This document shows, piece after piece, positions 18,941 through 22,654 of a DNA stretch of 64,000 nucleotides. Within the stretch, counting starts at the first letter, position 1. Each line of letters starts with the position of its first letter. The notes beneath the pieces are model-generated. The model saw nothing but the letters and a program-made list of their open reading frames with translations. It ran no database searches and was not told the DNA's origin. This DNA is from Alloalcanivorax marinus. Its GTDB lineage: Bacteria; Pseudomonadota; Gammaproteobacteria; Pseudomonadales; Alcanivoracaceae. Position numbers and translations under genes: made by a program. Where the stretch lies: positions 1 through 64,000 of the forward strand of contig NZ_JADDOL010000005.1 of the NCBI RefSeq assembly GCF_016906305.1, read 5' to 3'.

Positions 18941-20175
18941 CGGCGCTCCAGGTAATCGGCGATGCGGCGCAGCGCCTCGCGCAGGCGGGCCTCGTCGCAG
19001 GTGTACGCCAGCCGCAGATAGCGCTCCGGCTGATGGCTGGCGCCGAAGTCCAGCCCCGGCGTCAGGGCCACCCCGGCCTTTTCCAGCAGATCCTGGCAAA
19101 AGGCGAAGCTGTCATCGGTATGGGCGCTGACGTCCAGATACAGGTAAAAGGCGCCCTCGGCGCCACCGACCACCGGCAAGCCCAGGGCCGGCAACGATTC
19201 CGTCAGCAGGGTGCGGCGCCGCTCCAGCATTTGCCGGCGCTGTTCGGCGATCAGCAGGGTTTCCTCGTCGAACGCCGCCAGCGCCGCGTGCTGGGCCACC
19301 GTGGCCGGCGCCAGAAACCAGTTCTGGGCCAGCCGCTCGATGGCCGGTACCAGCGCCCGGGGCGCCACCAGCCAGCCCAACCGCCAGCCGGTCATGCCGA
19401 AATACTTGCTGAAGCTGTTGATCACCACCGCCTCGTCGCCGTGGCGCAGCACCGTGTCCGCCGGCGCGTCGTAGCACAGGCCCTGGTAGATCTCGTCCAC
19501 CACCAGGGTGCCCCGACGGCCCGCGCACCAGCGCGCCATCTCCGCCAGCTCGGCGCCGTCCAGGCGATTGCCGGTGGGATTGTCCGGGCTGGCCACCATC
19601 GCCAGCCGGGTGCGCTCGCCCCACTGGGCGGCCAGCCGTTCGCCGCTGAGGCGGAACTGTTCCGCCGGGTCCAGCGTCAGCGGCCGGGGCACGCCGCCGG
19701 CCAGGGTCACGAACTGACGGTTGCAGGGGTAACCGGGGTCACAGAGCAGCGCTTCGTCACCGGGATTGAGCAGGGCCGCCATCACCAGCTGCAGCGCCCC
19801 GGACGCGCCCGGGGTCACCACCACCTGTTCGGCGGTCACCGGCGCGCCCAGGCGGCGGCGATAATCCAGAGCGATGGCCTCGCGCAGGGCCGGCAGCCCC
19901 GCCGCCGGGGTGTAGCGTGTATCACCGCGTTCCAGAGCGGCTCCGGCGGCGGCCATGATCGGCGCCGGACAGGGGAAATCCGGCTCGCCCACCTCCAGGT
20001 GAAGGATGTCCCTGCCCTGCGCCTGCAGGGCCTGGGCGCGCTCCAGCAGCGCCATGACATGGAAAGGGGGCGTCTCCCGGGCCAGCTCGGACAGCGGCGC
20101 GCCGCCGCCGGCGTCCTCGGGGCGAGTATCGTCTGACCGGCCCTCGCCGGGCGCGGTGGAATGGGTGCCAGTCAA
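18937..20175 (-). CDS. class I/II PLP-dependent aminotransferase
   Basis: Fold-type I aminotransferase of 412 residues. The PLP lysine is in INSFSKYFGMTGWRLGW, with NPTG in ASPDNPTGN and DEIYQG for cofactor binding. The N-terminal segment ETPPFHVMALLERA is typical of the aspartate/aromatic-type group; the amino donor is not certain. The start appears to be TTG 20175, with GAGG 6 nt before it, because the family N-terminus needs residues upstream of the first internal ATG. A polar ~30-residue extension precedes the fold. Confidence 0.88.
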   Translation of the reverse strand: MTGTHSTAPGEGRSDDTRPEDAGGGAPLSELARETPPFHVMALLERAQALQAQGRDILHLEVGEPDFPCPAPIMAAAGAALERGDTRYTPAAGLPALREAIALDYRRRLGAPVTAEQVVVTPGASGALQLVMAALLNPGDEALLCDPGYPCNRQFVTLAGGVPRPLTLDPAEQFRLSGERLAAQWGERTRLAMVASPDNPTGNRLDGAELAEMARWCAGRRGTLVVDEIYQGLCYDAPADTVLRHGDEAVVINSFSKYFGMTGWRLGWLVAPRALVPAIERLAQNWFLAPATVAQHAALAAFDEETLLIAEQRRQMLERRRTLLTESLPALGLPVVGGAEGAFYLYLDVSAHTDDSFAFCQDLLEKAGVALTPGLDFGASHQPERYLRLAYTCDEARLREALRRIADYLERR

Positions 20176-20262
20176 GAAAAACCTCTTTTTCCGCGGGGAA
20201 AGCTTTGCTATACCTTCGTCGCTTCGGCCTTGCGCGGGGCTGGTGGTTCCGCGCGGCTCGGC

Positions 20263-20268
20263 TATAAT
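20263..20268 (+). promoter_or_regulatory. possible -10 box of the dksA promoter
   Basis: A perfect TATAAT lies about 200 bp upstream of the dksA start in the 293 bp gap between the aminotransferase and dksA. The -35 side (TGGTGG, 16 bp away) is weak. Nothing else clear was seen in this gap. Confidence 0.4.
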
Positions 20269-20468
20269 CGCCGCGCCTCGCGCCAGCGCCGGTCCGCCCG
20301 TCAGGGCACCGGCGGCAATGGTGACAAGGGTCGCACTAAAACGGTAAGGTCGAAGCTTACACTATCGTCCGTCCCGAGGCGGCACTCGCCGGGCGCCCCG
20401 CCAGGCCGGCCCTCATTCGGGGAAGCCCAGGATAGCGAGTTGCGACTATGTTAAGGGAGTTGATCAAA

Positions 20469-21761
20469 ATGGCCACCGGAAGCAAAAGCAAAAGCAAAAA
20501 AAGCACGGCCAGTAAAAAGAGCGCGGCGAAAAGCACTGCATCCAAAAGCACCGTGGCCAAAAGCGGCACCGCCAAGAAGGCAGCCGCAAAAAAAAGCGCG
20601 GTAAAGACCCCGGCCCGGACGAAGAGCGCCAGCAAAGCCTCGGCAAAGACCGCATCGGTAAAGAAAGCGCCGGCGAAGAAAGCCGCGTCCAAGAAAGCGG
20701 CCGCCAAGAAGGCTGTCGCCAGGAAAGCGGCGCCGAAAAAAGCCGCCTCAAAGGCCGCTCCCAAAAAGGCAGCCCCGAAGAAGGCCACCGCGAAAAAGGT
20801 CGCGGCCAAAAAAGCCGCCGCCAGCAAAACCGCTCCCGCCCGCAAGACCGCCGCCCGGAAAGCCACCGCCGGCAAGACCCCGGTGAAGAAAGCGCCGACC
20901 AAACCAGCGACGGCGAAGAAAGCCGCGGCCAGCAAAGCCAAGCCGGCGAAGGCCTCCGCGACGAAGACCACCGCGACAAAAGCCACCGCGAAGAGAAGCG
21001 CAGCGTCCAAACCGGCGGCCCCCCGCAAGGCGGCGCCGAAGACCACCGCCAGCAAAGCCACGGCCGGAAAAGCCGCGGTGAAAAGCAAGCCCGCCGCCAA
21101 GGCCGGCCCGAAGAACACCCGACCGGCGGCCAAGAGCGCGCCGGCAAAATCGATTCCGGCCGCGGCCCCCAAGAAGGCCGCGACCCGACCCGCCGCCCCG
21201 GCGGCCCGGACTCCCGAACCTCAGCGTCCCACCCGGGCCGCCAGGACGGCGTCAGGAAGCCTCTCCCGGGCTTCAACCCGTTCTCCATCTTCCAATCAGG
21301 TGACATCCAAGGTGAACAAATCCCCCTCCACCGCCAGCAAGGCGGAAACGCTCATTCATGGTTTTATGCCGTACGTGCCCAAGGACGGCGAGGAGTACAT
21401 GAACGAAGCCCAGCGCGCGCACTTCCGTCAGATTCTTCTGGCCTGGCGCCAGGAACTGATGGAGGAAGCCGACCGCACCATGCACCACCTCCAGGATGAG
21501 GTGGCGAACCTGCCCGATCCCGCCGACCGGGCCACCCAGGAAGAGGAATTCGCCCTGGAGCTGCGCACCCGTGATCGGGAGCGCAAGCTGCTCAAGAAGA
21601 TCGAGAAGGCCCTGGATAAGATCGACAAGGACGACTACGGCTTCTGCGAAGCCTGCGGCGTGGAAATCGGTATCCGCCGTCTCGAGGCCCGTCCCACCGC
21701 CGAGCTGTGCATCGACTGCAAGGAGCTGGCGGAAATCAAGGAAAAACAACTGGCGGGGTGA
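20469..21761 (+). CDS. dksA: DksA with a ~290-residue histone-H1-like Lys/Ala tail
   Basis: DksA binds the RNA polymerase secondary channel and, with ppGpp, retunes rRNA and biosynthetic promoters. Here residues 299-430 are the complete DksA core: coiled coil with the tip motif DPADRA and a four-cysteine zinc finger (CEACG and CIDC). Residues 1 to about 290 are a low-complexity tail built of KKAA, SKSK and KATA-type repeats ending in a Pro/Arg-rich stretch, like the C-terminal tail of AlgP or histone H1. E. coli DksA is 151 residues. I chose ATG 20469 because AAGGGAG lies 9 nt upstream; ATG 20448 is in frame but lacks a site. The stop overlaps gluQ (GTGA). The tail should bind nucleic acid and disorder is likely; its role is inferred. 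Confidence 0.92.
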
Positions 21762-22654
21762 GCCGCCGTTACGTCGGGCGGTTCGCGCCCACGCCGTCGG
21801 GGCCGCTGCATTTCGGCTCCCTGGTCACGGCCCTGGCCAGTTGGCTGGACGCCCGCCATCACGGCGGGCGCTGGCTGCTGCGGGTGGACGACCTGGATCC
21901 GCCCCGCCAGCAGCCCGGCGCCGTGGACACCATCCTTCATCAACTGGACCGCTTCGGCCTGCACTGGGACGACACACCGCTGTATCAAAGCCGCCGTGGT
22001 CCGGCCTATGCCGATGCGGTGGGGCGATTGCTGGCCGCCGGCCTCGCTTTCCACTGCACCCTGTCCCGCAAGCAGCTTCAGGCCCTGGACAATATCCATC
22101 CCGGCCCGGCCGTGGCGCAACCGCCCGGCCCCGACCGGGCGGTGCGCCTGACCGTGCCGGACGGCCAGGTCTGTTTCGAGGACCGCATCCAGGGCCGGGT
22201 GTGCGCCGATCTGGCCCGGGAAGGCGGGCCGTTCGTGATCCGGCGCCGGGACGGCCTGTTCGCCTATCAGCTGGCCTGCGCGCTGGATGATGCGGACCAG
22301 GGCATCACCGATGTGGTACGCGGCAGCGACCTGCTGGCCTCGACGCTGCGGCAACGGCGTGTGCTGCAGTGCCTGGGGGCGCCGGCGCCCGACTACGCCC
22401 ATTTGCCGGTGATCATGGATCCGGCCGGTGGCAAGATGAGCAAGTCCGCCGGCGCCGCGGCGCTGGACACGGCCCGCCCGTCCGGCGCCCTGTTCGCCGC
22501 GCTGAGCTGCGTCGGCCTGCGTCCGGAGAAGGATCTGGCCGGCGCCGGGGTCGACGAGCAATTGGCCTGGGCCCGCGCCCATTGGCGCCCGGAGCAGCTG
22601 CCGCGAGGTCGGCGCCAGCCGCCCCCCGCGTTTTTGCGACCGGCGCGGGATTGA
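21758..22654 (+). CDS. gluQ: glutamyl-Q tRNA(Asp) synthetase
   Basis: Truncated GluRS paralogue that attaches glutamate to queuosine-34 of tRNA-Asp. 298 residues with the HIGH-like HFGSL after FAPTPSGP, and KMSKS. There is no anticodon-binding domain, as expected. In E. coli zinc is held by a CxC pair plus Tyr and Cys; here the segment reads [10 protein letters not shown] with only one Cys, so the zinc site looks lost. The GTG start overlaps the dksA stop, the dksA-gluQ pairing being common in gammaproteobacteria. Confidence 0.93.

Follow-up and report, generated by a model that had tools for sequence, protein, structure and literature searches.

The window, that is, the whole stretch of 64,000 nucleotides from Alloalcanivorax marinus that was analysed, carries a dksA gene whose product combines a long lysine- and alanine-rich N-terminal tail with DksA, a protein best known in the tail-less form of E. 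coli. The locus raises the question of what such a tail does, and of whether the gene yields the tailed protein alone or a tail-less DksA as well.

The DksA core

The open frame extends on the forward strand from position 20448 or 20469 to 21761, with the stop codon at 21759-21761, and encodes 437 or 430 amino acids, respectively. Its C-terminal part (21312-21758, forward strand), recognised by a PDB match and by conservation, comprises a coiled-coil with a DPADRA tip and a four-cysteine zinc finger. The NCBIfam model TIGR02420 matches residues 311-419 with 170.6 bits (cut-off 115.5), Pfam DksA_N is over its cut-off and the zinc finger family PF01258 scores 41.6 bits (cut-off 24.9). The stricter model PRK10778 stays below its cut-off (228.5 versus 289). 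The best PDB match of the core is E. coli DksA (1tjl, E 5.5e-65), with residues 6-149 aligned to 8-151. Within the DxxDxA tip, both Asp residues (21516-21518 and 21525-21527) and the Ala (21531-21533) are invariant in 22 family proteins and align to D71, D74 and A76 of 1tjl, the functional coiled-coil tip residues of E. coli DksA. The same invariance holds for the zinc finger residues C393 (21645-21647), C396, C414 and C417. Judged by all tested features except the PRK10778 cut-off, the C-terminal part is a member of DksA.

An earlier note on this DNA had suggested looking for a second, tail-less dksA. None was found in the genome, where TIGR02420 has a single match; the other zinc finger match belongs to a short PRK11019-type protein. 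Since the long gene encodes the only true DksA found, a tail-less DksA would need to come from this gene. A second DksA-like protein (102-117 bits) is present in the relatives G005-G008, G011, G012, G019 and G021, and no counterpart is matched in the window's genome. The frames of this second protein are long in G021 (334 codons) and G011 (231 codons; compare loci L049-L052).

The lysine- and alanine-rich tail

The core is preceded by a tail of 281 residues (20469-21311, forward strand), recognised by composition, Pfam HC2 and an AlphaFold2 model. It consists of 32% Ala, 23.5% Lys, 12% Ser, 11% Thr, 9% Pro and 5% Arg, with one Glu, no Asp and a net charge of +79. Across 34 family tails, the length ranges from 197 to 306 residues and the net charge from +54 to +86, with zero to three acidic residues in each. 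Lysines recur with a period of five (mean autocorrelation 0.43 at lag 5 and 0.32 at lag 10), and KKxxxKK occurs 342 times in these tails versus 106 occurrences of KPAA. AlphaFold2 assigns pLDDT values of 38-50 per block and no helix to the tail, which is probably disordered; with a whole-model mean of 49 and a core that is modelled only moderately well, the prediction supports disorder weakly. Pfam HC2 scores 43.9 bits for 20469-21362 alone and 41.8 bits for the whole protein against a cut-off of 40, as a low-complexity model that is weak evidence of descent; the NCBIfam cut-offs for Hc2 (25.3 versus 135) and the Burkholderia H1-like model (36.4 versus 80) are not reached by the tail. In composition and repeat pattern, the tail resembles Hc2/histone H1.

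The description of the gene in the earlier note, DksA with a histone-H1-like cationic tail, is thus borne out by the open frame, the TIGR02420 score and the charge. The tail coordinates given there (20469-21362) hold at their start, which is right or nearly so, and fail at their end, which falls inside the linker. The proposed fusion with an AlgP-like gene is not supported, in view of the period-5 repeat, the lack of an AlgP-type N-terminal domain and the Lys/Ala tails that, roughly scored, occur in 34 other families. Two more Lys/Ala-rich proteins of the same genome do have an AlgP-like layout, with a charged, probably helical part followed by a Lys/Ala tail (L135:976-1890 and L136:1138-1896).

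The tail is under purifying selection. In 12 close pairs of family genes, dN of the tail is well below dS, at ratios of roughly 0.07-0.42. The reading frame remains intact even though the tail alignments are gapped in 11 of these pairs, so the tail is translated and maintained for its composition. The same ratios, together with the presence of the long frame in 24 of 25 family genomes searched and the length and charge ranges of the tails, rule out chance and an assembly artefact as the origin of the unbroken frame described before. They also bear on the idea that the tail is a functionless, neutral low-complexity sequence, grown by slippage in a GC-rich genome. Length and repeat order do change fast, as seen in the length range and the gapped pairs, one relative has no tail, and a comparable stretch is found in a flavin monooxygenase of this genome. 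Neutral growth accounts neither for the low dN/dS, nor for the near-absence of acidic residues from each of the 34 tails, nor for the occurrence of tails in nearly the whole family and, roughly scored, in 34 others, and is considered very improbable. The flavin monooxygenase (L137:46-1812, reverse strand, contig C11 of the window's genome G000; PF00743 and PF13738 over cut-off) has its Lys/Ala-rich stretch of about 60 residues in front of the FAD domain, and Lys/Ala tails may be appended to unrelated enzymes in this way.

By analogy to HupB, Streptomyces TopA and AlgP, the most reasonable reading is that the tail would tether DksA to nucleic acid. Alternatively, its target might be polyphosphate or RNA and not the chromosome, and it would then store or inhibit DksA in starved cells. 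AlgP, with its Lys/Ala/Pro tail, is reported to associate with polyphosphate granules (PMC9239181), and the references of that paper include DksA control of E. coli polyphosphate. DNA binding fits equally well, and this alternative appears unlikely.

Distribution of tailed DksA

DksA length, the comparison proposed in the earlier note, was examined in the family and in the rest of its order. The long frame of those 24 family genomes measures 357-492 codons; elsewhere in the order, 13 genomes were covered, and 2 of them have a long frame (306 and 318 codons). Of the named relatives, Alcanivorax and Alloalcanivorax are the closest. The tail-less family member (L020/L087) is nested, on a long branch, inside the family in a tree of neighbouring genes; rpoB, which had no match in the tail-less genome, was left out of this tree. 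The nested position disfavours ancestral absence of the tail, although AU tests disagree: p is 0.096 for 40 rows under LG+G4, and 0.030 under a mixture model after removal of two outgroup rows. The tree suggests that this gene likely lost its tail secondarily.

In a class-wide sample, the DksA model was matched at E 1e-40 in 308 of 369 genomes. Among the 149 best-scoring of the 308 matches, a biased slice from which the window's genome was excluded, 75 loci have frames of at least 205 codons. Of these, 73 were read, and a Lys/Ala/Arg-rich tail of at least 50 residues was found in 57, from 34 families, by a rough script criterion whose regular expression missed plainly Lys-rich tails (e.g. L204) and perhaps admitted doubtful ones. 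By these counts, a tail on DksA is a widespread variant and not unique to the family.

Start and leader of the long form

ATG 20469 was taken as the start of the tail because of the strong ribosome site TAAGGGAG upstream of it (20452-20459, forward strand), and is the true start or close to it. This Shine-Dalgarno-like element is kept as DNA, within the stretch ATG-NTA-AGG-GAG (N = T, C or A), in all 34 genes compared out of 37 distinct family genes. Across these 34, the AGG GAG is invariant, the preceding codon always ends in TA, and the duplex energy ranges from -7.9 to -13.7 kcal/mol. The stretch was read as a ribosome site since it is conserved at the DNA level and uses rare Leu and Arg codons. 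Two further family genes encode the same peptide upstream of ATG 20469, and the tail-less gene has none of it. An in-frame ATG further upstream (20448-20450, forward strand), which adds MLRELIK, occurs in every family gene except the tail-less one (36 of 37). As it is conserved too, translation may begin at 20448 or 20469. The MLRELIK stretch (20448-20468) may be an extra start or a piece of a control element.

A TATAAT at 20263-20268 (forward strand), followed by the GC-rich CGCCGCGCC, is the likely -10 element of the dksA promoter. The hexamer occurs within 330 bases 5' of the first start in all 34 family genes examined, at about -115 to -299; a sigma-70 consensus scan upstream of dksA called no promoter. 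Between TATAAT and the start lies the leader box GGTAAGGTCGAAGCTTACACTAT (20343-20365, forward strand). It is found, as such or as a close variant and at varying distance, in 23 of 34 family loci. These coincide exactly with the 23 rows of the Alloalcanivorax/Alcanivorax clade in the tree. At up to two mismatches the window's genome contains one copy of the box, and the reversed-pattern control gives zero. The box is possibly a second promoter or a regulator site. An Rfam search of 19900-22100 for structured RNA at dksA found nothing at E values of 1 or below.

A conserved GTG at the tail/core junction

The junction between tail and core has the form CAG-GTR-N9-GTG. Its GTG, at 21312-21314 (forward strand), is a candidate internal start, singled out by codon conservation, that would yield a canonical DksA of 149 residues. 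The family set comprises 37 distinct genes, of which 36 are tailed and one is tail-less; 36 of the 37 have GTG as the candidate, and the remaining gene has ATG. The distance from GTG to the stop is 147-151 codons (153 for the ATG), close to the length of E. coli DksA, and this spacing is near-fixed while tail lengths differ by 109 residues. In the tail-less gene, too, a GTG is found at a distance of exactly 149 codons from the stop, although the start of this gene could also be an ATG four codons further on.

The codon choice was evaluated on a family tree built from two neighbouring genes. The third base of the junction GTG never changes on this tree, in which 33 of 34 rows have Val at this site. 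In the same alignment, 54 four- and six-fold degenerate columns have changed 5.6 times on average, and two of the columns are unchanged, namely the junction GTG and one Thr column (ACC, 29 of 29). As a control, 33 conserved Val columns of the two neighbour genes were counted on the same tree; none is invariant, with 2-13 changes and a mean of 7.2. Upstream of the GTG, 34 of 36 tailed genes have CAG-GTA or CAG-GTG. Where Gln occurs it is always encoded by CAG (34 of 34), and the Val that follows it by GTA (20) or GTG (14), GTA accounting for 80 of 1029 Val codons in the control columns. The exceptional gene L082/L040 lacks CAGGTR, and in the alignment its ATG falls outside the GTG column. The junction GTG and CAGGTR are conserved as DNA sequence.

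Around the GTG the mRNA shows less folding than at 97% of the codon positions of the gene on average, with a range of 81-100%. An SD-like AGGTGA (21298-21303, forward strand, within CAG GTG A) lies 8 bases before the GTG in the window, with -8.2 kcal/mol. The internal SD match is fair in Alloalcanivorax (-8.2 to -8.4 kcal/mol) and in L064 (-8.4); in most other species it is weak, with -3.8 to -6.3 kcal/mol and -1.8 in L082, and its mean rank among all codons of the gene is 0.19. On the codon-level evidence we propose that translation may start internally at GTG 21312, against which the weak SD matches and the 8-base gap in the window can be set. The earlier note overlooked this conserved start candidate, which could supply a tail-less form from the same gene, and named ATG 21366 as the possible alternative. 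That codon is not conserved, with Met in just 3 of 36 tailed family genes, and was rejected as an internal start.

Candidate junction starts in other families

A junction start is not a general trait of tailed DksA. In 61 tailed genes from 33 families beyond the own family and family f135, no ATG/GTG peak is present at the junction, so a junction start is no by-product of carrying a tail. Most tailed DksA in this sample apparently lack one. In f135, an ATG is found within the 16 junction codons of 14 of 22 tailed genes; 15 ATGs fall in these 16 codons versus 6 in the other 64 codons scanned, and their SD matches are mostly weak. Family f144 was considered as a further case and rejected: two genes are promising, yet ATG is found in 3 of 9 genes, with TTG in one more. 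On this sampling, the candidate internal start is lineage-bound.

This distribution bears on the reading that the long form is the sole product, in which the tail tethers DksA and the junction QVxxxVK is a protein motif, such as a docking peptide or hinge, and no start. It is consistent with the missing peak in the 33 other families, with the weak SD matches in most species, and with the conservation of the residues themselves (Gln and first Val in 34 of 36 tailed genes, second Val in 35 of 36). A protein motif, however, leaves unexplained why the second Val is GTG without exception when all 33 control Val columns have changed, why the first is limited to GTA and GTG and the Gln to CAG, and why the tail-less gene has a GTG. 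The long form as the sole product is therefore regarded as rather unlikely.

Disordered, lysine-rich tails are easily cut, and a short DksA might be produced by proteolysis at the junction. In keeping with this, the smaller DksA product that is also seen in Xanthomonas euvesicatoria is termed a processed variant by the authors of PMC5559785. Cleavage gives no reason to expect that particular codons would be conserved at the junction, and appears decidedly unlikely as the source of the short form.

A proposed model: one gene, two forms of DksA

The reading proposed here, to which we give an even chance, is that one gene supplies two forms, a long DksA tethered to nucleic acid and a free canonical DksA initiated at GTG 21312. 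Initiation at ATG 20469 (or 20448) would give DksA with a disordered N-terminal tail of about 280 residues and a charge of +79. The tail would bind DNA and RNA with no sequence preference and hold DksA in the vicinity of the nucleoid and of RNA polymerase engaged in transcription, and the core would enter the secondary channel in the manner of E. coli DksA. On the same mRNA, a start at GTG 21312 would give the free canonical DksA of about 149 residues, and the ratio of long to short form would set the tethered fraction of DksA. The calculated masses of the two forms are 44.8 and 17.2 kDa, and Lys-rich proteins migrate slowly in gels.

A wider version is put forward more tentatively and is itself somewhat doubtful: in at least two gammaproteobacterial families, two proteoforms from separately regulated starts might divide stringent control into a nucleoid-bound and a free branch. 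AGGGA, which could be a CsrA site, occurs at the long start and is absent from the internal one. CsrA is reported to repress E. coli dksA post-transcriptionally (PMC7652899), and it is our guess that CsrA at AGGGA could separate the two starts.

If tails are as common as 57 among the best 149 of 308 matches, models of the stringent response that assume free diffusion of DksA may not transfer. The family offers a clean test, as the core is identical, the tail is on or off, and one synonymous base change is expected to separate the forms.

Comparison with known systems

A literature search returned no description of a Lys/Ala tail on DksA among the open-licence matches listed, and no protein or ribosome data on DksA of Alcanivoracaceae. 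In a paper on DksA of X. citri (PMC6804348), the terms 'N-terminal' and 'lysine' are absent from the main text.

E. coli DksA (1tjl) has the same core, including coiled-coil tip and zinc finger, in a protein of 151 residues without a tail. A parallel for a longer DksA is X. euvesicatoria, where, according to PMC5559785, the detected length is 256 aa instead of the annotated 147 and the upstream start is backed by peptides and start-codon mutants. Like that of the window, this DksA is read from far upstream, and its extension amounts to about 109 aa or more.

Chlamydial Hc2 contains pentad repeats. The Lys/Ala composition and a pentad lysine repeat are common to Hc2/histone H1-like proteins and the window's tail; Hc2, in contrast, is a free nucleoprotein, and here the tail sits on an RNA polymerase factor. 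For AlgP/PhaF of Pseudomonas, PMC9239181 describes a Lys/Ala/Pro-rich tail that is predicted to be disordered and for which DNA binding is reported. Its KPAA tetrads lie C-terminal to a helical domain, whereas mainly KKxxx pentads lie N-terminal to DksA in the window. Basic lysine-repeat tails are likewise reported to stabilise DNA binding of mycobacterial HupB and Streptomyces TopA (PMC5676037, PMC7398561). These tails are C-terminal, actinobacterial and not on secondary-channel factors, in contrast to the N-terminal tail on DksA.

For the use of two starts, the comparable system is AerR of Rhodobacter capsulatus, a regulator gene with two in-frame starts, whose products differ in function and vary in ratio with growth (PMC6199135). 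AerR differs from the window's DksA in being an unrelated protein with an extension of 40 residues, in that its two forms are experimentally shown, and in the second promoter that serves its short form.
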